Origin: Pseudomonas putida
Lineage (GTDB): Bacteria > Pseudomonadota > Gammaproteobacteria > Pseudomonadales > Pseudomonadaceae
Assembly (NCBI RefSeq): GCF_026625125.1
Contig: NZ_CP113097.1
Span: forward strand, 2,604,001 to 2,668,000
Reading direction: 5' to 3'
Length of the DNA stretch: 64,000 nt
Shown: piece by piece, positions 48,902-63,037 of the stretch
How positions within the stretch are numbered: the stretch's first letter is position 1
How the letters are laid out: the number at the start of each line of letters is the position of its first letter
The notes under the pieces: model-generated
Told to the model about the DNA's origin: nothing
Database searches by the model: none
Seen by the model: the letters and a program-made list of their open reading frames with translations, nothing else
Program-made: the position numbers and the translations under genes

Positions 48902-48939
48902 ATCCCCTGATGTGGGGATCGCAGCGGGGAATCCTCCCC
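48902..48939. promoter_or_regulatory. Two GC palindromes, candidate enhancer sites for mnxG
   Basis: ATCCCC-TGATGT-GGGGAT (48902-48919) and GGGGA-ATCC-TCCCC (48926-48939), centred about 82 and 60 bp upstream of the sigma-54 -24 element. The first shares 13 of 14 bases (CCCC-N-GATGT-GGGG) with a palindrome upstream of the receiver-gspE promoter at 60591-60604. Distance and symmetry suit an NtrC-type activator such as MnxR. The rest of the 313-bp gap (48733-49045) shows only the promoter. Confidence 0.6.
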
Positions 48940-48990
48940 AATCCGGTTCAATTTCCAGGCCAAGGCATTGATCTAGAAGAAAAAATTGTT

Positions 48991-49008
48991 CTGGCATACA
49001 CCTTGCTG
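48991..49008 (+). promoter_or_regulatory. Sigma-54 (-24/-12) promoter of mnxG
   Basis: CTGGCATACACCTTGCTG has GG at 48993-48994 and GC at 49005-49006 with 10 bases between, and TTGCT intact in the -12 block. Transcription would begin near 49017, about 28 bases before the ATG, leaving room for the ribosome site GGAGG (49035-49039). Confidence 0.75.
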
Positions 49009-49045
49009 ACCCTCTTGCACAGTTTCTGTGTCCCGGAGGTGCAGC

Positions 49046-52000
49046 ATGTCGACCCCCAATAAAGGCCCCGTCCTCACATCACTTGTATTGGCCCTGCTGA
49101 GCGTTACAGCGACCAGCGAAGCGGCTGTGCAATGCCAGCGCACCTTGGTGGCCAACGTGATTGCCCTGGACCAGCCGCTGATGTTCAACCGCCTTGGTGC
49201 GCAAAACGCCAACGGCATGATGTTCGCCCTGCGCCAGGATGTGGTGGACGAACACCAGGTACCGCTGAGCAAGGGGGGCGCCGCAGTGCCGGGCAAAGTA
49301 ACCCTGCGCCCGGACAAACGCCCGCGCCCCATAGTGCTGCGGGTGGCCGCGGGTGATTGCCTGACGGTCAACCTGACCAACCTGTTGGCTTACCAGGCCA
49401 ATCCCAATAAACACGGTATCGACCATGATGACAACGAGGTCGAAGGTGTAGAGGAAGAAGAAGGCGAAGAAGGCGAAGAAGCCGCAGAGGTGGAAAATGA
49501 GGGCGGCGAGAACTTCGTTGTCGACGAGCAGGTCACTGACCGCCACGTCGGCTTTCAGGTCAATGGCCTGCAGGCGGTCAACAGCATCGGCGACATTGCC
49601 GCCAACACCGGCCGCAACGGCAACTTCCTGATCGCCCCAGGCGCCACCCGCAGTTACACCCTTTATGCCGAACGCGAAGGTGCCTTCGCCGCCACCAGCC
49701 AGGGCGCTACCTTCGGCGGCCAGGGTAACGCTGGCAACGTAGCCAATGGCCTGTTTGGCCAAGTGGTCGTGGTACCCAAAGGTGGGCGCACCTACCGCAA
49801 CACCCTGAGCGAAGAGGAGATGCGCCTGGCCAGTACCGGCCGGGCCGCCACCGGCCAGCCCGTGGTCGATTATGAGGCCCGCTACCCTCAGGTTGAGCCG
49901 TGGATCGCCGAAGGCAAGGCGGGCAAGCCGATCATCGCGATGGTCGACGGCAACGAAATCCTCAGCAGTGAAACCGATGCCATCGTCATGGGGCCCAACC
50001 CGGACGGTAGCTTCCCACGTTCCACCTACCCTCTGGAAAGCATCAACAAGCGCAACCCGGCCTTGCCCAACCGGCTGGAAGCGTTTCGCGACTTCGCCTC
50101 GCAGTTTGCCGATGAAGTGGCCTCCACTCAGGCCTTCCCCGCCTACTGGGCTGACCCTGTCATGGGCCACGTGCTGGAGCCTGCGCGCGACGCCTTCATG
50201 ATCAACTACGGCTCGGGCGGCATGGGTGCCGAAGTCGTTGCCAACCGCTTGGGTGTCGGGCCGATGCACGATTGCCTGTCCTGCGCCTTCGAGGAGTTCT
50301 TCCTCAGCGCGCACACCGTGGGTGATATCGGCACCCTGGTGGACGTGCCAGCCAACGTCGGCCTTGAACACATTCGCCCAGGCGATACCCCACCGGCCAG
50401 CGCCACTGGCGTCAAGGCCAGCATGGCGCTGTACCCGTCCGAGCCGTCCAACGTGCACCACAGCTACATTGGCGACTTCACCAAGTTCCGCAACACCCAC
50501 AACGGCCATGAGCAACACATTTTCCACCTGCACGGCCACCAGTGGCTGTTCAACCCCAATGACGACAACTCCGACTACATCGATGCCCAGGGCATAGGTC
50601 CAGGTGTGGGGTACACCTATGAGATAGCCAATGGCGGCTCGGGCAACCGTAACCGTGTGGCGGGCGATGCCATCTACCATTGCCACTTCTATCCGCACTT
50701 CGCCCAAGGCATGTGGGCCATGTGGCGGGTGCACGATGTGTTCGAGGAGGGGACCCGCCTGGAAGTCAGCGTGCAGGGCCAGGATGGCTTCCATGACACG
50801 CCGTTCGCCTTGCGCAGCGGCAAGCCGGCGGCCGGCGCACGTGCGCTGCCTGACGGCGAAATCATCGCGGGTACGCCGATACCGGCGATCGTGCCGCTGC
50901 CAGGCAAAGCCATGGCGCCGATGCCGGGCAAGGTGGTGGTCGTGCCGAAGCTGGCGCAAGAGCTGGTCGCCGAAGGTGACGACGATCACGAAGACCCAGA
51001 GCATGGCGATGACGATCACGGCAGTGCGCCGGGCGCGGCCAAGGCTATAGGCTCGCTGGCACTGGTCGACCGCAGTGAAACCAACCGCAACGCTGATGGC
51101 ACCCTGAAAAACCCAGGCTACCCCTTCTGGATCGGCGGTATGGAAAGCAGCGTCGGCCAGCGTCCGCCGACCCCGCCGCTGGACATGCTCGACCCGGCCA
51201 TGGCTCGCCAGCTCAAGGACAGCGGCGCAGCGCTGTGGGCCAACCTCGACGGCAACCAGGTCGACGGATGGGACGGCGGCCTGGGCCGACATGCGCTCGA
51301 TGGCGTCTCCGCTGGGGGCGAAGCCGTGACCACCACCACCAAGCTCGATTTCTCCAAGGTGGTAGAAAAGGCCAAACCGATCTACCTGCCCGAGGAGGGC
51401 ACCGAGGTCGAGCAGGCCGCCATGCAGTTCCACGCCAAGGCCGAGCACCCAAGCTTTGCCCTGATCCCTGGCAGCCAGCCGGTGGCCAAGGCGTTTCGCA
51501 CCAACGGTGCTCTGCCAACCGCCGGCGCCCCGTTCTTCGAGCCGTGCATGGATGACCGCGGCAAACGTCTGACCCAAGCCTCGTCCACGGGCGAATACAA
51601 CAGCGGTGAAAGCCTGAGCAGCATCAGCTTCCGGGGTGCCTCCACGTTCACTGCCGACCGTCCTCGCATCTACAAGGCGGCCAATATCCAGTTCGACGCG
51701 GTGTTCAACAAGGTCGGCTATCACTTCCCGCAGACGCGCATCCTTGCGCTGTGGGAAGACGCCTGGCCGGTGATCACCAAGCAGCGCCCGCCAGAGCCGC
51801 TGGTGATGCGCATGAACACCTTCGACTGCACCATGTACCAGCAGACCAACCTGATCCCGGCGTTCTATGAAATGGACGACTACCAGGTGCGTACACCGAC
51901 CGATGTGATCGGCCAGCACATCCACCTGCCCAAGTGGGACCTGACCTCAGCCGACGGTTCGGCCAATGGCTGGAACTACGAAGACGGTGTCCTCTCGCCC

Positions 52001-54925
52001 GGCAGCGTGGTGGAGCGCGTGCATGCCATCCGTGCGTTCAATGGCTGTTCCGAGGGCGACAGCCGCGACGGCACTGCAGCCTGCCCGACGGCCAAGCCGC
52101 ACCCGTACTTCGGCCGCTTTGGCCGGGCCGACTGGGTGGGCGCGCGCACGGCCATGCAGCGCTGGTTCGCCGACCCGCTGGTCAACGTGCACAACGTCGA
52201 CCGGGGGCTGGGCACCATCTTCACCCATGACCACTTCGGCCCATCGACCCACCAGCAGTTGGGCCTGTACGCCACTGTGCTGGCCGAGCCTGCCGGCTCT
52301 ACCTGGCACCACGCCGAAACCGGCGAGCAGCTGTACAACCCGGCACTGCGCCAGGACGGTGGCCCGACCTCGTGGCAGGCGGTGATCAATACCGGCGACA
52401 ATGACGGCGATGGCAAGAACGACAGCTACCGCGAGTTCTTCCTCGAGTACAGCGACTTTCAGCATGCCTATGAAGCAGGCGTGTATGTGGGCGCCGGCCC
52501 CGATGGCGTGCCTAACGCCCAGGCCTACCCAGCCTCGGGCGACAGCTTCCGCTACGCCATCAACCCGCCCGTTCGGCAGAAGGCCTCGAACCTGCTGGAG
52601 TCGGTCGTCGAATCGCGCGGGGGCCTCAACCCTGGTTGCCCGACCCGGCCATGCCCACAGGCGATCTCGGTGGATGACCCGGGCATGTTCGTCGTCAACT
52701 ACCGCAACGAGCCATTGGCCCTGCGCGTCTTCGACCCGAACAAGGTGGCGCCGGATGGCAAACGCGGCATGCAGGCCGATGGCCTGGGAGGCGACCTGGG
52801 CTATGCCCTGCAGAGCCGCACCGACCGAGCCATCCCGGCCATGAACCTGGCCCCCTCGGCGATCAACTCGGCGGTGGGCCCCACCGGTGGCACCACCTTG
52901 TTCCCACCGCACATCAATACAGCAGGCAGCGAACCAGGCGACCCGTTCACCCCGATGCTGCGCACCTACTCTGGCGACAACGTACGGTTGCGTATGCACG
53001 CTGGCGGCTATGAGGAGGAGCACAACGTCACGATGCACGGCGTCAAATGGCTTCAGAACGGCACCGGCTACGGCAGCAGTTCCAACTCGGGGTGGAAGGC
53101 CTCGCAGATGATCGGCATTTCCGAGCAACTGGGCTTCCTGGCGCCGGTATCGATGATCTCCAGCTCGGCAGCCACCAATGGTGACTACCTGTATTCGCTG
53201 GACGCGGCGCTGGAAGGCTACTGGAACGGCATCTGGGGCGTCATGCGCAACTACACCGCGCAACGGCCCGACTTGTTCGCGCTGCCGAACAACCCGCAGC
53301 CGGTGGCCATGCGCAACACCACCAATTTCGATGGCATCTGCCCGAAAACCACGGCCAACCCCAACGGCGTCGGCACCCGGCCAACGGTCAAGCGCAACTA
53401 CGAAGTGGTCGCCGCGCTGGCCAACGACATCCTGGAAAACCGCCATGGTGTGAGCATCAGCGACCCGGCCGGTATCGGCCAGCACGTCGGCGGCCCGCTG
53501 AAGGCCAATGGCGGCACCCTGGTATTCAACAGCCGTACTACCAGCATCCCGCAGGTGACGGTGACCGACGAGGAGGATGGCACCACCTTCACCGTGGGCG
53601 GGCACAGCGCGCCCCTGCACGACCCGACCGCCGTGCTGTACGTGCGCAAGGCCGACCTGGATACCAGTACCGGCAAGCTCAAGGCTGGGGTGCCGGTCGA
53701 GCCTCTGGTGTTGCGCGCCAATGCCGGGGACTGCATCAGCATCACCCTGGAGAACCGCCTGCCGCTGGTGATGCCGGACCTGCCCAGCACGGCGGTGATG
53801 CAGAACGTGGTCAAGCGCGACCGCAACGACAGCGAAGGCTCCACCGCCTTCAACAACAACCTGATGCGGCCCTCCAGCCACGTCGGCCTGCACGCCCAAC
53901 TGCTGGCCTATGACATCACCAAGTCCGATGGCGTCAACGTCGGCCTCAACCCGGTGCAGACCGTACCGCCGCGCAGCGGTAACAGCGGTGCCTACCCGAC
54001 CAGGGTGTACCAGTACTATGCCGGGCACCTGGAGCGCGAAGGCAAGGCGGTGCTGCAACTGGGCCGCACGGTGGACAACATCCGCAACACGGCAATCGAG
54101 TTCGGCGCCCTCAACCTGACCCCGGCGGATGTCATCAAGCAACCGCAGAAAGGCCTGGTCGGTGCCATGAGCATCCTGCCGCAGACCGCTACCTTCACCG
54201 AGGACGCGGCCAGCCGCGTGCAAGCCACGGTCAAGGTCAGTGGCCAGCCAGACTACCGTGACTTCGTCACCGTCTGGCAGCGGGCGCTGAACATGCGTTG
54301 GGCCGACGGCCGCCCGGTGGAGGGCATCGCCACCGAAGGTAACGGTGTGCCGGGTGACCCGAAAGACAACGGCAACATGGCCATCAACTACAAGACCGAG
54401 CCGCTGTGGTTGCGCTTCGGCCTGGCACCGGACGCTCCGTTCGGCCGTGCCGATGGCTTTGGCTTCGGCGATGTACCCAACGCGCACATGGCCTACAGCA
54501 ATGCCCTGGTGGGTAGCGACCCGCAAACCCCGGTGCTGTACGCCAAACCCGGCCAACCCGTGCGCAGCCATGTGGTGATGCCCAGTGGCGGCAGCCGTGG
54601 CATCACCTACCAGCTCGATGGGCACCTTTGGCCGCTGCATGCCTACCAGGCCGAGAAAAATGACCTCGACGGCTACCCGATGAAGCAGCCTGGTATCGGC
54701 TCGGTACGCTTTGGCTACAACCCGATGTCGATGTACATCGGTGCCCAGGAGAGCGTGCTGCCCGCCGCGCACTTCAGCTTCATGTTGCCCAGCGCCGGGG
54801 GCGCCAATGCCGTACCGGGCGACTACCTGTTCCGTGACTATGCCGCCTACGGCAATACATCGGGGCTGTGGGGGATTCTGCGGGTTACCGACGACGCACC
54901 GCCGGCAACGGCGCCAGCACAATAA
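49046..54925 (+). CDS. mnxG: MnxG-type giant multicopper oxidase, Mn(II)-oxidising
   Basis: Very large multicopper oxidase (1959 aa) of the MnxG type reported to oxidise Mn(II) to Mn(IV) oxide in P. putida GB-1. Signal peptide about 1-26 (VLTSLVLALLSVTATSEA). Many cupredoxin domains. Copper motifs: HIFHLHGHQ (about 491-499) and HCHFYPHFAQGMW (about 545-557), the classic HCH-x3-H-x4-M site; further His clusters THDHFGPSTHQ (about 1058), HNVTMHGVKW (about 1323) and YQLDGHLWPLHAY (about 1855). Two acidic inserts: a Glu-rich run at 126-155 and an Asp/His-rich run at about 642-660, possible Mn(II) or Ca(II) sites. ATG 49046 has GGAGG six bases upstream. First gene of the mnx operon. Confidence 0.92.
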   Translation: MSTPNKGPVLTSLVLALLSVTATSEAAVQCQRTLVANVIALDQPLMFNRLGAQNANGMMFALRQDVVDEHQVPLSKGGAAVPGKVTLRPDKRPRPIVLRVAAGDCLTVNLTNLLAYQANPNKHGIDHDDNEVEGVEEEEGEEGEEAAEVENEGGENFVVDEQVTDRHVGFQVNGLQAVNSIGDIAANTGRNGNFLIAPGATRSYTLYAEREGAFAATSQGATFGGQGNAGNVANGLFGQVVVVPKGGRTYRNTLSEEEMRLASTGRAATGQPVVDYEARYPQVEPWIAEGKAGKPIIAMVDGNEILSSETDAIVMGPNPDGSFPRSTYPLESINKRNPALPNRLEAFRDFASQFADEVASTQAFPAYWADPVMGHVLEPARDAFMINYGSGGMGAEVVANRLGVGPMHDCLSCAFEEFFLSAHTVGDIGTLVDVPANVGLEHIRPGDTPPASATGVKASMALYPSEPSNVHHSYIGDFTKFRNTHNGHEQHIFHLHGHQWLFNPNDDNSDYIDAQGIGPGVGYTYEIANGGSGNRNRVAGDAIYHCHFYPHFAQGMWAMWRVHDVFEEGTRLEVSVQGQDGFHDTPFALRSGKPAAGARALPDGEIIAGTPIPAIVPLPGKAMAPMPGKVVVVPKLAQELVAEGDDDHEDPEHGDDDHGSAPGAAKAIGSLALVDRSETNRNADGTLKNPGYPFWIGGMESSVGQRPPTPPLDMLDPAMARQLKDSGAALWANLDGNQVDGWDGGLGRHALDGVSAGGEAVTTTTKLDFSKVVEKAKPIYLPEEGTEVEQAAMQFHAKAEHPSFALIPGSQPVAKAFRTNGALPTAGAPFFEPCMDDRGKRLTQASSTGEYNSGESLSSISFRGASTFTADRPRIYKAANIQFDAVFNKVGYHFPQTRILALWEDAWPVITKQRPPEPLVMRMNTFDCTMYQQTNLIPAFYEMDDYQVRTPTDVIGQHIHLPKWDLTSADGSANGWNYEDGVLSPGSVVERVHAIRAFNGCSEGDSRDGTAACPTAKPHPYFGRFGRADWVGARTAMQRWFADPLVNVHNVDRGLGTIFTHDHFGPSTHQQLGLYATVLAEPAGSTWHHAETGEQLYNPALRQDGGPTSWQAVINTGDNDGDGKNDSYREFFLEYSDFQHAYEAGVYVGAGPDGVPNAQAYPASGDSFRYAINPPVRQKASNLLESVVESRGGLNPGCPTRPCPQAISVDDPGMFVVNYRNEPLALRVFDPNKVAPDGKRGMQADGLGGDLGYALQSRTDRAIPAMNLAPSAINSAVGPTGGTTLFPPHINTAGSEPGDPFTPMLRTYSGDNVRLRMHAGGYEEEHNVTMHGVKWLQNGTGYGSSSNSGWKASQMIGISEQLGFLAPVSMISSSAATNGDYLYSLDAALEGYWNGIWGVMRNYTAQRPDLFALPNNPQPVAMRNTTNFDGICPKTTANPNGVGTRPTVKRNYEVVAALANDILENRHGVSISDPAGIGQHVGGPLKANGGTLVFNSRTTSIPQVTVTDEEDGTTFTVGGHSAPLHDPTAVLYVRKADLDTSTGKLKAGVPVEPLVLRANAGDCISITLENRLPLVMPDLPSTAVMQNVVKRDRNDSEGSTAFNNNLMRPSSHVGLHAQLLAYDITKSDGVNVGLNPVQTVPPRSGNSGAYPTRVYQYYAGHLEREGKAVLQLGRTVDNIRNTAIEFGALNLTPADVIKQPQKGLVGAMSILPQTATFTEDAASRVQATVKVSGQPDYRDFVTVWQRALNMRWADGRPVEGIATEGNGVPGDPKDNGNMAINYKTEPLWLRFGLAPDAPFGRADGFGFGDVPNAHMAYSNALVGSDPQTPVLYAKPGQPVRSHVVMPSGGSRGITYQLDGHLWPLHAYQAEKNDLDGYPMKQPGIGSVRFGYNPMSMYIGAQESVLPAAHFSFMLPSAGGANAVPGDYLFRDYAAYGNTSGLWGILRVTDDAPPATAPAQ

Positions 54926-54943
54926 GAAAAGGGGCGTACCAAC

Positions 54944-56926
54944 ATGCATAACAAGAAAACCCGCCCCGCCGTGCTGGGGGTATTGCTGGGCGCGGCGTTG
55001 ATCGGCCTGGGCGTGGCCTACGAGGAGCTTTGGTGCGACCCGCGCGAGCTGCTGCAGGCGCCTGCCGACCCGCAGGCGCTGCACCGGCTCAGCCGGGATG
55101 GGGTGACGGTGGAGTTCGAGGCCCGGCCGCTGGCCGGGAGCGAGTTGCGCGAAGGCGCCTTCGCCAATATCCGCTTCAAGGTCACCGACCAGACCAGCGG
55201 CCAACCGCTGTCGGGGATGGCGCCAGGGGCGTGGATCGACCCGGCACAAGCGGCACCGCAGGAAAGCAGCCGTGACCAGAGCTGCAAGGCCCGGGTGGCG
55301 CTGTTTCTCAAGAGCAGCATCGGTGCCAGGCCGCTGCTGGATCTGAACAGTTACTTCCTGCTGGTGCTGAACAAGGATGCCAGCCTGACGGTGATCGACC
55401 CGACCGTCTCGGTGGGCGGTGTCACCAGCACCCTGGCACGCATCGAACTGCCGGGGCGGCCCATGGACTGGGTAGCTACCGCCGATGACAAGCAGGTATT
55501 CGTGTCGATACCTGAGCGCGGCGAGGTCGCGGTGATCGACACCGAAACCTTTACCCGTGTGGCCAACCTGGAGGCTGGCGAGATGCCGCTGCGTGTAGCC
55601 CTGCAGCCGGACCAGCGCCGGTTGTGGGTCGGCAACAACAGTGATGACCCGGCCAAGGGCGGGGTGACGGTGATCGATGTGCACAGCCGCAGCATGCTGA
55701 AAAGCTTCGCCACCGGCTCCGGGCACCACGAAATCGCCTTCAGCGCCGATTCGCGCTACGCCTTCGTCAGCAACCGCGACGGCGGCACCCTGAGCATTAT
55801 CGACATCCCCGAGATGCGCTTGGTGAACACCCTGGAAGTCGGCCCGCATCCGTTGGCTGTGGCCTACTCGGCGCTGTCGCAGGCGGTGTACGTCAGCGAT
55901 GGTTCAGAGGGCACGGTGCGGGTGTACGATGCCCGCAGCCATCAGTTGCGCCATACCGTCCAGGCCGAGCAAGGCCTCGGGCCGATGCGCTTCAGCAGTG
56001 ATGGCCGGTACGGCATCGTCCTCAACACCCTGGAAAACCAGGCCCTGGTGATCGATGCCAGTACCGACAGGTTGATCCACCGCATCCCGGTCGCCGCCGA
56101 GCCGTACCAACTGACGTTCACCAAGGGTTATGCCTACGTGCGCGGCCTGGCGTCTTCGAAGGTCAGCATGATCAACCTGAGCAGCCTGGGCGAAGGCCGT
56201 CAGCCGATCGTCCAGGGTTTCGATGCCGGCCCCGCCGCGCCGCGCCAGGCCGGCGACCTGCCGCTGGCCCAGGCGCTGTCGGTGTCACGCGATGACAATT
56301 CGGTGTTCGTGGTCAACCCGGTGGACAACACCACGTACTTTTATACCGAAGGCATGAATGCACCGATGTCGGGTTACAACAACCGCGGCCACCAGGCCCG
56401 GGCCGCCATCGTCATCGACCGCAGCCTGCGCGAACTGGCCCCGGGGGTGTATGGCTCGACGGTGAAGATGCCGGCGTCGGGCAAGTTCGACGTGGCGTTC
56501 CTGCTCAACCAGCCGCAGATCATCCACTGTTTCAGCACCGACGTGGCCGCCGTGCCGGATGCGGCCAAGCGCAAGGGCGCGCATGCCGAGTTCATCGGCC
56601 TCGACCAGCCCTTGGCGCAGCACCGCGCCATCACCGCCAAAGTGCGCATCTTCGGTGACGACGGCCGCCCGCGGGTGGGCCTGGACGACCTGACCCTGCG
56701 CTACTTCCTGGCGCCGTCATCGATGCCACGCAACCTGCGCCTGGAAGAGGTGGGCGAGGGGGTTTACCAGGCTGCACTGATGCTGCCTGAAGCCGGCGCG
56801 TGGTACCTGCATGTGCAGTCGCCATCGCTGGGGCACAAGTTTGCCGAAGAGAACTACACCAGCCTGCGTGTCCTGCCGGCCGCAGCGTCTACCGCTTCCC
56901 AGACTGAAGTGAGGAATGTGCAATGA
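54944..56926 (+). CDS. YncE-like beta-propeller protein with N-terminal anchor
   Basis: 660 aa. Uncleaved signal anchor (about 8-26), an N-terminal FixH-like beta domain (about 48-105, GVTVEFEARPLAGSELREG), a seven-bladed YVTN/YncE-type propeller (about 130-480; blades with repeated patterns such as PDQRRLWVGNNSDD and YAFVSNRDGGTLSIID), and another FixH-like Ig domain at the C-terminus (about 570-640). No enzyme motif. It begins 18 bp after mnxG and overlaps the next SCO gene by 4 bp, so it is part of the same operon. It may hold copper or help assemble or anchor MnxG in the periplasm; this is inferred from position. Confidence 0.8.
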   Translation: MHNKKTRPAVLGVLLGAALIGLGVAYEELWCDPRELLQAPADPQALHRLSRDGVTVEFEARPLAGSELREGAFANIRFKVTDQTSGQPLSGMAPGAWIDPAQAAPQESSRDQSCKARVALFLKSSIGARPLLDLNSYFLLVLNKDASLTVIDPTVSVGGVTSTLARIELPGRPMDWVATADDKQVFVSIPERGEVAVIDTETFTRVANLEAGEMPLRVALQPDQRRLWVGNNSDDPAKGGVTVIDVHSRSMLKSFATGSGHHEIAFSADSRYAFVSNRDGGTLSIIDIPEMRLVNTLEVGPHPLAVAYSALSQAVYVSDGSEGTVRVYDARSHQLRHTVQAEQGLGPMRFSSDGRYGIVLNTLENQALVIDASTDRLIHRIPVAAEPYQLTFTKGYAYVRGLASSKVSMINLSSLGEGRQPIVQGFDAGPAAPRQAGDLPLAQALSVSRDDNSVFVVNPVDNTTYFYTEGMNAPMSGYNNRGHQARAAIVIDRSLRELAPGVYGSTVKMPASGKFDVAFLLNQPQIIHCFSTDVAAVPDAAKRKGAHAEFIGLDQPLAQHRAITAKVRIFGDDGRPRVGLDDLTLRYFLAPSSMPRNLRLEEVGEGVYQAALMLPEAGAWYLHVQSPSLGHKFAEENYTSLRVLPAAASTASQTEVRNVQ

Positions 56927-57576
56927 ACGCCAGACATTCTTGCAAGCTGCTCGTACTTTCCATGGCCATGGCCAGCCAATTCGCCCTGGCCCACGCGGGC
57001 CATGACCACAGTGGGCATGCGCAGCCGCCAGCGGCACATCAGGAGAAAGCCAGCGTGCGTTTCGCCGATGTTTCACTGCTTGACCAGGATGGCATGCCGG
57101 TGCGCCTGGAAAAGGACCTGGTCGGCGATCATCTGGTGGTGATGGGCTTCATTTACACCAGTTGCACCACGGTGTGCCCGGTGGTGTCTTCGATCATGGG
57201 CAAGGTGCAGCAGCAACTGGGGGGGCGGGTAGGCGAGGAAGTGCGCCTGGTGTCGATCAGCGTGGACCCACAACGTGACGACTCCAAACGCTTGCAGAGT
57301 TACGCCAAGGCCTTCCAGCATGGCCCCGGCTGGAGCTGGCTGACCGGCTCGCCCTATGCCATTACCGAGACCCTCAAAGGCCTGGGCAGCTTCAGTGCCG
57401 ACCTCAGCCAGCACCCGCCGCTGATTCTGGTGGGTGACGGGCACAGCGGGCACTGGACGCGTTATTACGGCTTCACCGACCCGGCCGTGCTGATCGACGA
57501 AATCAACCGCCTCAGTGCCCGTCGGGTGCATGCCAAGAGCACGGCCATCGCCGAACACCAGGAGGTGCAACCATGA
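56923..57576 (+). CDS. SCO1/SenC-family copper/thiol protein, first of two
   Basis: 217-aa periplasmic thioredoxin-like protein of the SCO family, which delivers Cu(I)/Cu(II) or reduces Cys ligands of copper sites. Signal peptide MNARHSCKLLVLSMAMASQFALA, a His-rich mature N-terminus (HAGHDHSGHAQPPAAH), the CxxxC copper/thiol motif in SCTTVCPVVSS, and the third ligand His in SQHPPLILVG. The His-rich tail may collect copper. Overlaps its neighbours at both ends by 4 bp (ATGA). The role suggested by context is copper loading of MnxG. Confidence 0.92.
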   Translation: MNARHSCKLLVLSMAMASQFALAHAGHDHSGHAQPPAAHQEKASVRFADVSLLDQDGMPVRLEKDLVGDHLVVMGFIYTSCTTVCPVVSSIMGKVQQQLGGRVGEEVRLVSISVDPQRDDSKRLQSYAKAFQHGPGWSWLTGSPYAITETLKGLGSFSADLSQHPPLILVGDGHSGHWTRYYGFTDPAVLIDEINRLSARRVHAKSTAIAEHQEVQP

Positions 57577-58238
57577 GCAGCCAAGCGTCCTGTCGTGTCG
57601 GCATGCGCAGCTTCGACTGGCTGGCCCTGGCCGGTTGCCTGTGGATCTTCGCGTCGGTGGCCCTGGCCCATGAAGGCCACGCACCGAGCGCGCCCAGCCC
57701 TCAGCCTTCGCCACCGGCGATGGCCAGTGGCGAAGGCACCCGCGACGCGCAGACCTGGTTCACCGACACCGTGCTCCAGGACCAGAACGGCCGCGCGTTG
57801 CGCTTCTACAGCGATGTGCTCAAAGACAAGGTGGTGATGCTCAACGTCATCTTTACCCACTGCACCGATGCCTGCCCGCTGATCACCCGCAAACTGCGTG
57901 AGGTGCGCGAGGCCATGGGCCCTGAGCTGGCCAGCCAGGTGACCTTCGTGTCCATCAGCAGCGACCCGCTCAACGACACCCCAGCTGCGCTCAAGGCCTT
58001 CGCTGAAAAACAAGGGGTGGACAGCGCCAACTGGCTGTTCCTGACCGGCGACAAAGCCAGCGTCGACCTGGTGCTGGGGCGTATCGGCCAGTTCCTGCCC
58101 AGCCCCGAGCAGCACTCGACCCAGCTGATAGCCGGTGACGTGGCGGGCAAGCGCTGGAGCAAGATCCGCCCCGATGCACCGCCAGCGGCCATCGCCCAGC
58201 GCATGAAGCTGCTGGCCCAGCCGTTGGCCGGACGCTGA
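57573..58238 (+). CDS. SCO1/SenC-family copper/thiol protein, second of two
   Basis: 221-aa SCO protein. Signal or anchor helix at about 13-32 ending AHEGHAP, CxxxC in HCTDACPLITR and the later His in PSPEQHSTQLIAGD. It differs from its neighbour enough that the two are old paralogues, perhaps one reducing thiols and one carrying copper, as in other paired SCO systems. It overlaps the first SCO gene by 4 bp. The following 110 bp hold a tandem duplication and a REP element. Confidence 0.9.
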   Translation: MSSQASCRVGMRSFDWLALAGCLWIFASVALAHEGHAPSAPSPQPSPPAMASGEGTRDAQTWFTDTVLQDQNGRALRFYSDVLKDKVVMLNVIFTHCTDACPLITRKLREVREAMGPELASQVTFVSISSDPLNDTPAALKAFAEKQGVDSANWLFLTGDKASVDLVLGRIGQFLPSPEQHSTQLIAGDVAGKRWSKIRPDAPPAAIAQRMKLLAQPLAGR

Positions 58239-58241
58239 ATG

Positions 58242-58346
58242 CACTGACAGCCTGTGCGCAGCGGCGCAGAACACAGTGGCAGCACTGACAGGATCTGTTC
58301 AGCGGCGCAGAACAAAGTGGGAGCCGGCTTGCCGGCGATGAGGCCA
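58242..58346 (+). repeat. 41-bp tandem duplication running into a REP element
   Basis: Two direct copies of a unit starting CACTGACAG and including GCGGCGCAGAACA(C/A)AGTGG begin at 58242 and 58283 (period 41). The second copy runs straight into a REP core, GTGGGAGCCGGCTTGCCGGC (58318-58337). The REP ends in GATGAGGCC, whose GAGG (58340-58343) lies five bases before the next ATG and is the only apparent ribosome site of that gene. Confidence 0.8.
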
Positions 58347-58348
58347 GA

Positions 58349-59875
58349 ATGAACACAGCGAGATCACTTTGCTTAGCGCTAGGCCTGACCTGCTGCGTTC
58401 AGGCGCTTGCCCTGGACCTCACCGCCCACGAGCAAGCCGGTAAACGCCTGTACCGCGAAGGCGTGTCCAGCAGCGATGCACAGTTGATGGCCCGGATAGG
58501 TGCCAGCGAAATGAGCGTCCCCGCTAGCGTATTGCCCTGTGCCAGTTGCCACGGCAATGACGGCCGTGGCCGCGCTGAAGGCGGGGTGCGCCCGCCCAGC
58601 CTCGACTGGCAGCGCCTGGCCCTGGGCCAGGGTGCACGCCAAAGCAACGGCCGCAGCTACCCGGCCTACACCGATAACAGCCTGGCCCGCGCCATCCAGC
58701 ACGGTCTGGACCCCGCCGGCAACCGCCTGGACCCAGCCATGCCTCGTTTCGAGCTCACCCTGGCTGACCAGCGCAACCTAACCGCCTACCTCAAGCGCCT
58801 GGCTGACGAGCGCGACCCCGGCGTGGAAGAAGGGGTGCTACGCCTGGGGACCCTGTTGCCCGCCAGCGGGCCGTTGGCAGAGGCCGGGCACGTGGTGCGC
58901 ACGGTGCTCGAAGACGGGGTGGCCCAACTCAATCAACAGGGCGGCGTGCATGGCCGGCGCTTGGCGCTGGTGGTGGTCGACCCCGGCAGCGACGCGGCAA
59001 GTGCCGAGCATGCGCTGCGCCAGTTGCTAGAGCAGCAGCGGGTATTTGCGCTGATCAGCCCGTTGGCACCGATGCTCGATTCGCGCCTGGCCCTGCTGCT
59101 CGAACAACACGGCGTGCCCTTGGTTGGCAGTGCCCCGCGTAGCGGCGGCAACGCGCACATCTTCGACCCCTTGCCAGGCATTGCCACGCAGTTGCTGAGC
59201 CTGGCCGTGCATGCCCGCGAAACGCTGGGCCTGGCGCGAGATGGCTTGCGCGTCGTGTATGCCGGCGATGACCAGGCAATGCTGGCCGAACAGGTGCGTG
59301 GGCGCCTGCAGCAGCAGGGTTGGGCGCCGGGGCCGATCGAGGCCTTCAGTGGCCAGGCGGTGCAGGGGCAGGGCATTGTGTTCGTCGGCCGCGCCCAGGC
59401 CTTTGCCGAGCTGGCTGCAGCGTTGCAAGCGGCAGGCCGTAACCCCTACCTGTTCGCCACCTCCAGCCAGGTGGCCGGCGCCGTGGCCGCGCTGCCGGTG
59501 CAGTGGTCGCAGCGGGTGTTCCTGGCCTATCCGTTCGTGCCAAGCGACTGGACCGAACAAGGCATGGCGACCTTGGCCGGCCTGCAGCAGCGCCAAGGCC
59601 TCGACCCACGCCAGGCCTCGTTGCAGGTGAACACCCTGTGCGCACTGCGCCTGCTTGGCGAAGCCCTCAAGCAGATCGGCCGTGATGCCAGCCGCGAACG
59701 CCTGGTCGCGGCGCTGGAGGGCTTGCATGACGTCGATACCGGCCTGACCCCGCCGCTGGGTTTCGGGCCCGGCCAGCGCCAGGGCCTGGCTGGCGCCCAT
59801 GTGGTGGCGGTGGCGCTGCCTGGGCCGCGCTTTACCGCTGTCGCCCCCTATCGGCCTGTGCCGGTCAGCCCATGA
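58349..59875 (+). CDS. Cytochrome c fused to ABC-type periplasmic substrate-binding domain
   Basis: 508 aa. Signal peptide (about 1-22), then a cytochrome c domain (about 23-152) with one haem site CASCH in VLPCASCHGNDGRGR and a likely axial Met in AMPRFELTLADQ. From about 160 to 495 a Leu/Ile/Val-binding-type (Peripla_BP_6) domain: LRLGTLLPASGPLAEAG, VHGRRLALVVVDPGSDA and later ALEGLHDVDTGLTPPLG. Exported haem plus ligand-binding modules in one chain suggest a redox-linked sensor or electron carrier. Fifth gene of the mnx operon; the ribosome site comes from a REP element. Confidence 0.87.
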   Translation: MNTARSLCLALGLTCCVQALALDLTAHEQAGKRLYREGVSSSDAQLMARIGASEMSVPASVLPCASCHGNDGRGRAEGGVRPPSLDWQRLALGQGARQSNGRSYPAYTDNSLARAIQHGLDPAGNRLDPAMPRFELTLADQRNLTAYLKRLADERDPGVEEGVLRLGTLLPASGPLAEAGHVVRTVLEDGVAQLNQQGGVHGRRLALVVVDPGSDAASAEHALRQLLEQQRVFALISPLAPMLDSRLALLLEQHGVPLVGSAPRSGGNAHIFDPLPGIATQLLSLAVHARETLGLARDGLRVVYAGDDQAMLAEQVRGRLQQQGWAPGPIEAFSGQAVQGQGIVFVGRAQAFAELAAALQAAGRNPYLFATSSQVAGAVAALPVQWSQRVFLAYPFVPSDWTEQGMATLAGLQQRQGLDPRQASLQVNTLCALRLLGEALKQIGRDASRERLVAALEGLHDVDTGLTPPLGFGPGQRQGLAGAHVVAVALPGPRFTAVAPYRPVPVSP

Positions 59876-59887
59876 ATGGAGGTTGCC

Positions 59888-60529
59888 ATGCGTATCGTGA
59901 TGCTGTGCCTGTTGCTGCTGATCGCCAAGGCGGGCTGGGCCGATAGCCCGGCGGCGCGGGTCAATGGTGTGGGCATCGGGCTGATGCGCCTGGAGCGCTA
60001 TTTCAGTGACTATCTGCAGGCACAGGGGCGGGCTGTGACCAGCATCCGTAACCCCACGCTGTACAAGCGTCTGCGTAGCCAGGCGCTGGATGAACTGATC
60101 GACAAGGAATTGCTTTGGCAAGAAGCCCAGCGCCGCGGCATCGCCATCAGCGATGAGCAGGTGTCGGCGCAGCTAGGTGAAGTGGAAGCCGCATTCGGTG
60201 ACCCGGCGCTGTTTGAAAGACGGCTTGCAGATGCAGGGTTCGACCGCGCAGCATACGCTGACTACCTGCACCGGGAGCTGGCAGCGCAACAGGTGTATGC
60301 CCAGCTCAGCGCGGTAGCCGAACCCACCCAGGCCGAGGTGGAAGCGTTTTATCAGGCCAACCAACAGCGGCTGCAAGGAGCGCAGAACCAAAGTGATAAT
60401 TCTTCGGTCATACGCGAACAGGGCCTGGTGCTGGCCAGGGCTTCGCTCATCAGCCAATTGCAGGCGCAGGCACGGCAAGCGGCGCGCCAACGTTTGCGCG
60501 AATCCGCTAAAGTGGAAATCGCTGACTGA
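59888..60529 (+). CDS. SurA N-domain-like periplasmic protein lacking a PPIase domain
   Basis: 213 aa. Signal peptide MRIVMLCLLLLIAKAGWA, then a helical SurA_N-type chaperone core (about 20-150): SPAARVNGVGIG, LRSQALDELIDKELLWQEAQRRGI and SDEQVSAQLGEVEAAFGD. The parvulin catalytic domain expected after this is absent; instead the chain ends in a short helical tail. It probably binds unfolded polypeptide without isomerase activity, perhaps helping fold the 1959-aa MnxG. The ATG at 59888 has TGGAGG eight bases upstream; the ATG at 59876 is less well placed. It lies 12 bp after the preceding gene. Confidence 0.8.
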   Translation: MRIVMLCLLLLIAKAGWADSPAARVNGVGIGLMRLERYFSDYLQAQGRAVTSIRNPTLYKRLRSQALDELIDKELLWQEAQRRGIAISDEQVSAQLGEVEAAFGDPALFERRLADAGFDRAAYADYLHRELAAQQVYAQLSAVAEPTQAEVEAFYQANQQRLQGAQNQSDNSSVIREQGLVLARASLISQLQAQARQAARQRLRESAKVEIAD

Positions 60530-60544
60530 AGCCTGCGATGGCGT

Positions 60545-60604
60545 TTCCCCAAAGCTGGGGAATAACGGCTTGGCAAAGTGCCATCAGCTGCCCCGGATGT
60601 GGGG
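60545..60604. promoter_or_regulatory. Two CCCC-N6-GGGG palindromes, candidate enhancer sites
   Basis: TTCCCC-AAAGCT-GGGGAA (60545-60562) and CCCC-GGATGT-GGGG (60591-60604), centred about 138 and 94 bp upstream of the sigma-54 -24 element. The second matches the palindrome before mnxG in 13 of 14 bases. The first might instead be a hairpin ending the mnx transcript, since it lies 16 bp after the preceding stop codon, but it has no T-run. Confidence 0.55.
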
Positions 60605-60688
60605 CACCGGGCCTCGGCCTGTTCGTAGGGCTGGCAAAGGTGCTTTGAAAATCAACAACTTGACGTGGTGCAACATGACTATTCATGC

Positions 60689-60706
60689 CTGGCACGAAGC
60701 CTGCTC
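60689..60706 (+). promoter_or_regulatory. Sigma-54 (-24/-12) promoter of the receiver-gspE unit
   Basis: CTGGCACGAAGCCTGCTC has a perfect -24 block (TGGCACG), GG at 60691-60692 and GC at 60703-60704 with 10 bases between, and CTGCT against TTGCW at -12. Predicted start near 60716, about 54 bases before the GTG of the receiver gene. Confidence 0.72.
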
Positions 60707-60769
60707 AAGCCTTCCCAAGGCCGCACTTCGCAGACCGGGGAACCGGGCAGTTCTTGGGAGTCGACCTTG

Positions 60770-61300
60770 GTGAACAGAGTATTGGTAGTCGATGACGAAC
60801 AGACCCTTGCGCAAAACCTGCAAGCGTACCTGCAGGCGCAAGGCCTGGAAGTCCATGTTGCCCACGACGGTGCCAGTGGTATCGGCCTGGCTGAACGCCT
60901 GGCACCGGATGTGATTGTGCTGGATTACCGCTTGCCCGATATGGAGGGTTTTCAGGTCCTGCAGACCGTGCGCAAGAACAGGCAGTGCCACTTCGTGCTC
61001 ATCACCGCCCACCCGACCGCCGAGGTCCGTGAGCGAGCCGCCGAACTTGGCGTGACCCATGTCCTGTTCAAGCCGTTCCCGCTCTCGGAACTGGCGCGCC
61101 CGATCTTCGACCTGATGGGCATCGAGCGCCGGCGCAGGGCCACGGACAACCCGGCAGAAGGGTTCGTCGAACGACGCCAGAACAGGAACGAATCGTTCCC
61201 CTTGCAGTTGTACGATGGTAGCTGGGTACTGGCCGACCGCCGCCGTAATGGCGCCAAGCCCTCTGGACCCGACGACGACCAACTGCTCACCGGGGAATAG
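60770..61300 (+). CDS. Single-domain response regulator with C-terminal extension
   Basis: 176 aa from GTG at 60770 (GGGAG nine bases upstream; the in-frame TTG at 60767 is equivalent). A receiver domain (about 1-118) with acidic pocket D8/D9/E10, phospho-acceptor Asp52 (VIVLDYRLPD), Thr in LITAHPT and Lys in LFKPF. Residues 119-176 are an Arg-rich, disordered-looking extension (ERRRRATDNPAEGFVERRQ) with no DNA-binding or enzyme domain. It probably acts by protein contact, possibly on the secretion machinery encoded 57 bp downstream. First gene of that unit, behind the sigma-54 promoter. Confidence 0.85.
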   Translation: MNRVLVVDDEQTLAQNLQAYLQAQGLEVHVAHDGASGIGLAERLAPDVIVLDYRLPDMEGFQVLQTVRKNRQCHFVLITAHPTAEVRERAAELGVTHVLFKPFPLSELARPIFDLMGIERRRRATDNPAEGFVERRQNRNESFPLQLYDGSWVLADRRRNGAKPSGPDDDQLLTGE

Positions 61301-61357: not shown

Positions 61358-63037
61358 ATGTCCGATGCAGTACAACCTCTGCCAATCTCGGGATACCCCC
61401 GCGATCTGCTGGCCCAGGCCCGCTTGCAAGCCGGCGACGAGCGCCTGCTCAACTGCCTCGAGCGCCTCGCCTGCGACACCCCTGCCACCTTCATCCGCCG
61501 CCTGGGCAGCACATTGCATTACCCGGTGCTGGACAGCCAGCGCCTGTTGGCCAGCAGCCCCCGGTTCGACAAGATCAGCCTGGCCCAATGCCTGAAGCGC
61601 GAGTTCGTGCTGATAGAGCAGGGCGGTGAACTGCGGGGTGTGTTCGCCGACCCCTTCGACCACGCCCGCCTGGCCTGGATCGACGATGTGCTGCAAGGGG
61701 CGCCATTGTACCTGGCCCACGCCGCCGACCTGGCCACGTTCCTGGCCCGCCACGAAGAAAGCTTTCACGCCGTCGATGCCCTGGATCACGACGCCGAAGC
61801 CAGCAGCGAAAGCGACCCGCTGCAACGGCTGTCGCTGACCAGCATCAGCGAAGACCAGAGCAAGGTGGTCAAGCTGGTCAACTCAACCCTTTACGACGCC
61901 CTCAAGCAGCATGCCAGCGATATCCACCTGGGCATGACCGGCCAGGGCCTGACCATCAAATACCGCATCGACGGCGTGCTCAATGCGGCCGGCAAGGCCA
62001 GTGGCAGCGCCTTCGCCGACCAGGTGATTTCGCGCATCAAGGTCATGGCCGAGCTGGATATCGGTGAGAAGCGCGTGCCACAGGACGGCCGCTTCAAGGT
62101 TGCCGTAGGCGAACGCCAGATCGACTTCCGCGTGTCGATCATGCCGAGCATCTTCGGTGAAGACGCCGTGCTGCGGGTGCTCGACAAGCAGGATTTGTCC
62201 GACCGGGTCAGCGGCGTACAGCTGCAGGCCCTGGGGTTTGCCGATGAAACCCTGCGCGCCCTGCGCCGCCTGGCCGCCGAGCCCTACGGGATGATCCTGG
62301 TCACCGGCCCCACCGGCAGCGGCAAGACCACCACCCTGTACGCCATGATCAGCGAGATCAACCACGGGGTGGACAAGATCATCACCATCGAAGACCCGGT
62401 CGAGTACCAACTGCCCGGCGTGCTGCAGATCCCGGTCAACGAGAAGAAAGGCCTGACGTTCGCCCGTGGCCTGCGTTCGATCCTGCGCCACGACCCGGAC
62501 AAGATCCTGGTCGGCGAAATACGCGACCCCGACACCGCGCAGATCGCCGTGCAGTCGGCACTCACCGGCCACCTGGTGTTCACCACCATCCACGCCAACA
62601 ACGTCTTCGATGTGATCGGCCGCTTCAGCCAGATGCAGGTCGACCCCTACAGCTTCGTCTCCGCCCTCAACGCCGTGCTGGCCCAACGCCTGATCCGCCT
62701 GGCCTGCCCGCATTGCAGCACGCCGTGCGAGGCCGATGACGAAACCCTGGCCGCCTCTGGCCTTACCCGTGACGCCGTGCAGGGCTGGACGTTCGTCCGT
62801 GCCCCGGGCTGTGGCCAGTGCCGCGGCAGTGGCTACCGCGGCCGCAGTGCCATCGCCGAACTGCTGCACCTGGACGATGACCTGCGGCAGATGATCGTCG
62901 AACGTCGCCCACTGGCGCAGATCAAGGCGCTGGCCTGCCAGCGCGGCCTGCGGCTGCTGCGCGCATCCGCCCTGGACCTGGTCCGCGAGGGCCGTACCAC
63001 GCTTGAGGAGATCAACCGTGTCACATTCATTGCGTGA
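61358..63037 (+). CDS. gspE: Type II secretion/type IV pilus assembly ATPase, GspE-like
   Basis: Cytoplasmic hexameric motor ATPase (559 aa). An N-terminal MshEN/T2SSE_N domain (about 20-150), then the catalytic half: Walker A GPTGSGKTTT at 317-326, Asp box IITIEDPVEYQL, Walker B region ILVGEIRDPDTA, His box ALTGHLVFTTIHANN, and a zinc-binding tetracysteine C450-x2-C453 ... C485-x2-C488 as in GspE and PilB. It powers pseudopilus extension for protein export across the outer membrane. Its close linkage to the mnx genes agrees with reports that type II secretion exports the Mn-oxidising factor. The next gene starts within its last 20 bp. Confidence 0.93.
   Translation: MSDAVQPLPISGYPRDLLAQARLQAGDERLLNCLERLACDTPATFIRRLGSTLHYPVLDSQRLLASSPRFDKISLAQCLKREFVLIEQGGELRGVFADPFDHARLAWIDDVLQGAPLYLAHAADLATFLARHEESFHAVDALDHDAEASSESDPLQRLSLTSISEDQSKVVKLVNSTLYDALKQHASDIHLGMTGQGLTIKYRIDGVLNAAGKASGSAFADQVISRIKVMAELDIGEKRVPQDGRFKVAVGERQIDFRVSIMPSIFGEDAVLRVLDKQDLSDRVSGVQLQALGFADETLRALRRLAAEPYGMILVTGPTGSGKTTTLYAMISEINHGVDKIITIEDPVEYQLPGVLQIPVNEKKGLTFARGLRSILRHDPDKILVGEIRDPDTAQIAVQSALTGHLVFTTIHANNVFDVIGRFSQMQVDPYSFVSALNAVLAQRLIRLACPHCSTPCEADDETLAASGLTRDAVQGWTFVRAPGCGQCRGSGYRGRSAIAELLHLDDDLRQMIVERRPLAQIKALACQRGLRLLRASALDLVREGRTTLEEINRVTFIA

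Follow-up and report, generated by a model that had tools for sequence, protein, structure and literature searches.

Conserved CCCC-N6-GGGG palindromes upstream of sigma-54 promoters probably join manganese oxidase and secretion genes of Pseudomonas putida in one regulon

Introduction

Are the making of Mn-oxidizing enzymes and a neighbouring secretion machinery under one control in Pseudomonas putida? The question is raised by a stretch of 64,000 nucleotides (the window) of a 5.86-Mb chromosome (assembly GCF_026625125.1, genome G000 in this study), in which both the oxidase gene mnxG and a unit formed by a stand-alone response-regulator receiver gene and a gspE-type gene (receiver-gspE) are preceded by a sigma-54 promoter and, farther upstream, by a palindrome CCCC-N6-GGGG. 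With a probability of roughly 0.85, we read these palindromes as enhancers of a single sigma-54 regulon that would join Mn oxidases, a type II-like secretion system and a pair of related proteins encoded elsewhere on the chromosome; the regulator MnxR is the likely activator. An activator acting at distant sites together with sigma-54 is a well-known kind of system.

Several elements of this control have been published. According to the accessible part of PMC11930936, sigma-54 sites and sites for integration host factor (IHF) are predicted at PmnxG and PmcoA, and the activity of both promoters requires Mn. The accessible part of PMC11409713 reports that an rpoN::Tn5 insertion abolished Mn oxidation in strain MS-1 and that MnxR is needed for Mn oxidation.

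Results

Palindromes and promoters at mnxG and receiver-gspE

The elements and genes concerned are listed below. For scoring, the sigma-54 consensus was taken to be TGGCAC-N5-TTGCW (11 scored positions) and the IHF consensus was taken to be WATCAANNNNTTR.

48904..48917, forward strand: predicted mnxG enhancer palindrome CCCC-N6-GGGG, CCCCTGATGTGGGG, 74 bp upstream of the -24/-12 element
48961..48973, reverse strand: near-match to the IHF consensus between palindrome and promoter
48992..49007, forward strand: mnxG sigma-54 promoter, TGGCATACACCTTGCT
49046..54925, forward strand: mnxG, Mn-oxidizing multicopper oxidase (NCBIfam NF041487, 3870 bits, cut-off 3100)
60547..60560, forward strand: distal CCCC-N6-GGGG palindrome, CCCCAAAGCTGGGG
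60591..60604, forward strand: proximal CCCC-N6-GGGG palindrome, CCCCGGATGTGGGG, 85 bp upstream of the promoter
60650..60662, forward strand: match to the IHF consensus between palindrome and promoter
60690..60705, forward strand: receiver-gspE sigma-54 promoter, TGGCACGAAGCCTGCT
60767..61300, forward strand: stand-alone response-regulator receiver (Pfam PF00072, residues 5-110 of 177; start codon not settled)
61358..63037, forward strand: GspE/PilB-type secretion ATPase with an MshEN domain (Pfam T2SSE, MshEN)

Both promoters carry GG-N10-GC within an element resembling the consensus, at a set place, and both scored 10/11 (TGGCACGAAGCCTGCT on the identical element of locus L013). The sequence-only reading, from which the analysis started, had named these two promoters, and their letters, places and distances proved right. 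It had also stated that the two main palindromes are nearly identical and that their spacings differ by one helical turn; read directly, CCCCTGATGTGGGG and CCCCGGATGTGGGG share 13/14 bases, and the distances from palindrome end to TGG are 74 and 85 bp. The third palindrome that it had pointed out, at 60547-60560, turned out to be the partner in a pair conserved across 67/67 relatives.

Conservation was followed at mnxG in 81 sequences (the window and 80 loci, out of 215 encoding a relative) and at receiver-gspE in 67 loci that held the gene and sufficient upstream DNA, those with less than 250 bp upstream being left out. Sites were called strict with 8/8 arm bases and loose with at least 7/8 arm bases plus a promoter score of 8. 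A sigma-54 element scoring at least 9/11 was present upstream of mnxG in 81/81 sequences. Within 60-125 bp upstream of it, the palindrome had 8/8 arm bases in 56/81 and at least 7/8 in 75/81; for the latter, the gap was 70-77 bp in 53/81, 96-102 bp in 24/81 and one or the other in 70/81. The receiver-gspE promoter gave the strongest case for the site. The promoter was of the TGGCAC/TGGCAT type in 66/67 loci, and every locus had at least one palindrome with 8/8 arm bases, proximal or distal, the perfect one being the distal one in many loci. Paired sites with at least 7/8 arm bases each were likewise found in 67/67, 41-45 bp apart in 63 of them. The proximal gap was 74-76 bp in 37 loci, 85-86 bp in 13, 96 bp in 9 and other (60 to 79 bp) in 8, so that the classes, which cover 59/67 loci, are separated by steps of one DNA helical turn. 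A conserved inverted repeat, helically phased upstream of a sigma-54 promoter, is the arrangement expected of an NtrC-type enhancer.

The nature of the motif

The exact pattern CCCCNGATGTGGGG, proposed by the sequence-only reading as a 14-base consensus, occurred twice in the 5.86-Mb genome, at the mnxG and receiver-gspE sites; the motif was not seen to occur freely within genes at the rate expected by chance, the outcome that reading had named as grounds for giving up its idea. With one mismatch, five further places were found, against two for the backwards pattern. Four of the five were dropped, as they lie inside frames of at least 300 residues (mechanical calls of open frames) without a usable adjacent sigma-54 element, and the fifth adjoins gspG and mnxS1-mnxS2-mnxR. 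The consensus itself was too narrow, since the exact 14-mer is rare in relatives: at mnxG it was present in 2/81 sequences, those of the window and of L013 (MnxG proteins 99% identical), and at the receiver promoter in 7/67. Conservation does not extend to the inner GATGT: 32 distinct 6-bp centres were counted in 58 perfect mnxG sites and 30 in 67 receiver sites; over distinct centres, A+T amounted to 64% and 68%, respectively. The motif proper is CCCC-N6-GGGG with conserved arms and an A+T-rich centre.

Controls and genome scans

Other genes of these clusters rarely gave a positive loose test: sco1 2/70, sco2 0/67, the binding protein gene 0/67, surA 2/67, gspE 3/67, gspF 0/41, the SLT gene 1/41 and the SCO gene beside mcoA 0/54. 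The regulator genes themselves gave 1/7 for mnxS1, 1/7 for mnxS2 and 0/7 for mnxR. Random 480-bp windows from the same loci, true sites included, were positive by a similar loose test in 117/4000 cases, 65 of them with 8/8 arms.

A scan of the host genome at spacings of 60-90 bp yielded three matches, namely mnxG, receiver-gspE and a place at 3,322,503, while the reversed control yielded 0. A total of 159 Pseudomonas genomes, which served for all multi-genome scans, was then searched with a composite, a stricter pattern modelled on the mnxG sites. The search gave 29 rows, or 28 places after removal of the duplicate row L195, and the reversed pattern again gave 0. Assignment by tblastn with 20 proteins placed 18 at mnxG, 2 at mcoA, 2 at mnxS2-mnxR and 2 at the second gene of the mnxG operon; the remaining 4/28 had none of the tested genes alongside. 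The pattern being mnxG-shaped, the 18 mnxG matches were to be expected, and the six other places in Mn genes form the independent part of this result. MnxR was encoded in 23/26 motif-positive genomes (Fisher p 1.5e-10; the genomes are not independent of one another), and in the 3/26 without it the tested Mn genes were unmatched beside the sites. With sites conserved at both kinds of gene and 24/28 scan places in manganese-oxidation genes, the earlier proposal that Mn oxidase and secretion genes form one regulon gained support.

In genomes G112 (L177) and G110 (L179), the stretch between mnxS1 and mnxS2-mnxR contains a perfect palindrome with a sigma-54 promoter, a position that suggests self-regulation in these two genomes.

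The regulator MnxR

The host counterpart of MnxR was identified by synteny in relatives.

3,144,961-3,146,439 (L168:8961-10439), reverse strand: MnxR, by synteny and domains; two kinase genes adjoin

The gene lies about 0.49 Mb from mnxG and encodes a receiver domain, a sigma-54 activator domain and a Fis-type helix-turn-helix. Among the matches listed, a sigma-54 activator was found 36-38 kb from mnxG in six of eight relatives; none was found near mnxG in G002 among these matches, and the nearby activator of G007, which by eye adjoins amyloid genes, was rejected. The genes of L161 run in the order kinase, McoA-like protein (with a multicopper oxidase domain), SCO-like protein (so labelled from gene order only), kinase and regulator. 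The order mnxS1-mcoA-SCO-mnxS2-mnxR is given for MS-1/DSV-1 in the accessible part of PMC11409713, together with 77.3% identity between GB-1 and MS-1/DSV-1; identity to the host MnxR was 78-79% in six relatives and 67% in L079. The host genome has 19 strong matches to the sigma-54 activator domain, among which MnxR was not found by neighbouring kinase motifs. Two candidates, a 458-aa regulator at 5.75 Mb and one beside amyloid genes at 3.12 Mb, were discarded when synteny pointed elsewhere. By eye, L127:2416-10468 holds a functional-amyloid-like operon; the sigma-54 activator behind it departs from the regulator model in its first residues.

An ortholog of MnxR was found in 52/159 genomes. mnxG was present in 51, all of them MnxR-positive, G029 being the sole genome with MnxR but without mnxG. 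The regulator is present where the sites and their targets are.

Further candidate members of the regulon

The third host match, at 3,322,503, precedes two tandem genes.

L099:6676-10268 (G000:C1:3322676-3326268): tandem related proteins of 442 and 755 aa

A relative of the 442-aa gene was found in 52/159 genomes, exactly the 52 with MnxR (in G057 as a match in two pieces with a stop). Upstream of the first gene of the pair, 8/8 arms were present in 24/30 loci and at least 7/8 in 26/30 (30 of the 52 genomes), with gaps of 77-78 bp in 3 and 88-92 bp in 23 of the 26. In L161 the pair stands divergent from a kinase gene of the mnxS1-mnxR cluster. No Pfam match was obtained for the 442-aa protein or its 448-aa relative, and the 755-aa protein contains cadherin/Ig-like repeats (Pfam). 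Both proteins look exported, a guess from the appearance of their N-termini, and their linkage to the sites and to MnxR points to a possible role in Mn oxidation.

At mcoA, 8/8 arms were seen in 4/30 loci and at least 7/8 in 28/30, at varied distances (30 of 49 genomes, mostly of the shorter form); in the related-loci set, the strict test was positive in 0/7 and the loose test in 6/7. By these sites, mcoA and the protein pair probably belong to the same regulon. mcoA was not found in the host genome with a query that matched 49/159 genomes; one of these 49, G030, lacks MnxR, and its match is a fragment. MnxR without an mcoA match was also seen in G068, G070 and G138, and in G000 the regulon is otherwise present though mcoA was undetected.

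The secretion genes extend past the window end, with PilN-, PilO/GspM-, secretin- and pseudopilin-type genes after gspE (L008). GspF and GspG domain families (T2SSF, T2SSG) were also found; gspG and gspF adjoin mnxS1 at 3.15 Mb in the host and lie shortly upstream of mnxG in 41 related loci. By eye, about 89 bp separate the gspG palindrome CCCCCGATATGGGGG from the sigma-54-like element GTGCACGGCTGTTGCA downstream, and gspG-gspF is a probable regulon member on this weaker promoter match. By the curated models, the system did not qualify as canonical type II secretion, GspE scoring 484 bits against TIGR02533 (cut-off 630) and GspD 157 bits against TIGR02517 (cut-off 351). In the receiver protein, PF00072 was the sole Pfam family at E <=0.01, and no DNA-binding domain was found in that search.

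Discussion

Proposed mechanism and relation to known systems

In the proposed regulon, MnxR, the most likely activator, would be phosphorylated by MnxS1/MnxS2 and would bind, as a dimer, to CCCC-N6-GGGG sites that precede the -24/-12 promoter by about 75-120 bp. Between palindrome and promoter, IHF would bend the DNA, and the activator would touch the sigma-54 polymerase through looping. The host targets would be the mnxG operon, the receiver-gspE unit, the protein pair and, by its weaker promoter match, gspG-gspF; mcoA would join them in relatives, as would mnxS2-mnxR in two genomes. The secretion system may export the oxidases or the pair. A bolder version, in which Mn sensing governs both making and export, with MnxS1/MnxS2 also phosphorylating the stand-alone receiver and so setting a dedicated secretion motor while MnxR works via its GAFTDA loop, strikes us as doubtful.

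As in the MnxS1/MnxS2/MnxR pathway of P. putida GB-1, the genes of two histidine kinases and of one sigma-54-type response regulator are adjacent, with mnxG and mcoA as targets. The present proposal differs in naming a binding site as well as targets other than the oxidases (the secretion unit, the pair and self-regulation in two genomes), and no mcoA was detected in the host. With the promoters of PMC11930936 it shares sigma-54 and IHF sites and Mn-dependent activation, whereas the accessible part of that paper names no activator palindrome. NtrC-type enhancers in general are inverted repeats that precede the promoter by about 100 bp, frequently in pairs, in phase with it and with an intervening IHF site; these features recur here, although the arms are CCCC-N6-GGGG, three spellings of which were not found in the literature searched. 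Type II secretion and type IV pilus-type assembly systems likewise have GspE, GspF, GspG, secretin, PilN- and PilO/GspM-type genes; here, however, they are split over two loci, with a stand-alone receiver in front and scores below the curated GspE/GspD cut-offs. No report on rpoN dependence of receiver-gspE was found in the literature searched. Neither the palindrome nor a place of the secretion unit among the targets was proposed there, including the accessible parts of PMC8218464, PMC9765421 and PMC12210982; most subscription papers and the 2010 MnxS/MnxR paper lay outside the search. As far as this search extends, the site and the wider regulon are new, while the sigma-54/IHF sites and rpoN dependence were already published. 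One master switch may drive the making, and perhaps the exporting, of Mn-oxidizing enzymes in many Pseudomonas species. The defined site and target list make such a regulon testable, and point to a likely dedicated secretion route and to a protein pair that shares the distribution of MnxR (52/159).

Weighing the explanations

A number of observations weigh against the single regulon. The sites, the promoters, their conservation and spacing and the co-occurrence of genes are shown by sequence, and this co-occurrence is confounded by gene content. In the window by itself, up to two mismatches gave 6 matches against 4.12 expected, no rarer than chance, and the weight rests on the genome and the relatives. 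Spacings of 91-121 bp also gave 3 matches in the host genome, none at a correctly oriented regulon promoter, so that single-genome counts are weak evidence. The scan patterns were modelled on known sites, which makes the mnxG matches (and, in the host scan, the one at receiver-gspE) non-independent. Of the 52 MnxR-positive genomes, the strict composite picked up 23 and missed 29, partly because it excludes longer spacings and other promoter letters seen among mnxG loci. Six of the 81 mnxG loci (L038, L060, L062, L081, L083, L084) had no site in range, perfect mcoA sites were few (4/30) with distances not fixed, and the gspG promoter lacks the usual GG (strict 0/41, loose 30/41). The exact IHF consensus was scarce: it was found within 75 bp of the receiver promoter in 17/67 loci (upstream of the palindrome in 0/67), at mnxG in 6/73 and at the pair in 0/8. 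MnxR was named via synteny and domains, without comparison to the GB-1 protein. Finally, its loop reads GAFTDA in 8/8 distinct orthologs (L168, L161-L165, L167, L079), not GAFTGA, which we take to be the nearly invariant sigma-54 contact of activators; AFTGA was read in 45/58 other alignments, and 13 had no readable loop.

The last of these points bears on whether the palindromes, though genuine, are bound by a different protein, such as another sigma-54 activator, a repressor or a co-regulator, with MnxR acting elsewhere or indirectly. Binding by MnxR is inferred, the host has 19 strong activator domain matches to choose from, the loop is a variant, and 29 of the 52 MnxR-positive genomes lack the strict composite. 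However, MnxR, mnxG and the pair gene are almost identically distributed (52, 51 and 52 of 159), whereas most genomes should carry a house-keeping activator, and the motif also stands at mcoA and mnxS2-mnxR, genes of the known pathway; another binder is unlikely in our judgement. Of the earlier claim that the palindromes are MnxR enhancers, the enhancer part is supported by the conservation of palindrome plus promoter, and MnxR is the likely binder, supported by co-occurrence and domains.

It is considerably less probable still that two separate regulons share a look-alike palindrome, with the secretion unit controlled apart from Mn oxidation. Such a split would fit the number of sites, two in 67/67 receiver loci but, by the same test, in just 12/73 mnxG promoters. 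Yet the arms are identical and the spacing classes overlap, and the genes travel together, the receiver gene lying within 10 kb of mnxG in 67 related loci and gspG close upstream of mnxG in 41. We can scarcely credit the palindromes being hairpins, terminators or chance G/C-rich repeats devoid of a regulatory role, although a G+C-rich genome offers many short G/C arms and the SurA-like gene immediately precedes the 60547 site. None of the three sites is followed by a T-run, the sites are kept where the surrounding DNA aligns badly (by eye), their promoter distances are set and helically phased, and most of the control genes in these clusters seldom have one in front. The single regulon with MnxR as its likely activator is the explanation that we prefer.

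Neighbouring genes and further observations

The remaining elements of the mnxG region are as follows.

48926..48939, forward strand: GGGG-N6-CCCC element next to the mnxG palindrome, half-sites in reverse order (by eye, from sequence and alignment)
54944..60529, forward strand: remaining mnxG operon (Pfam)
54944-56926, forward strand: beta-propeller protein, second gene of the operon (Pfam)
56923-57576 and 57573-58238, forward strand: two SCO1/SenC genes (Pfam)
58349-59875, forward strand: binding protein with a cytochrome c domain (Pfam)
59876-60529, forward strand: SurA-like gene (Pfam)

The gene order is the same as in the GB-1 operon in Table 4 of PMC11409713, as far as that source was accessible. 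The GGGG-N6-CCCC element was present in many putida-type alignment rows (by eye, uncounted). Before the beta-propeller gene, the composite was found in 6/73 loci by the loose test, and the composite matches inside the operon, before its second gene, belong to G135 and G033 (L172, L178). L083, L084 and L089 are diverged mnxG copies, about 73-74% identical, and second copies occur in G095 and G159. No palindrome was found at 60-125 bp in L083 and L084, and L089 has merely a 7/8 palindrome in range. A transglycosylase (SLT) gene (L168:13711-14301, reverse strand) accompanies gspG-gspF, adjoining mnxS1 in the host and mnxG in relatives.

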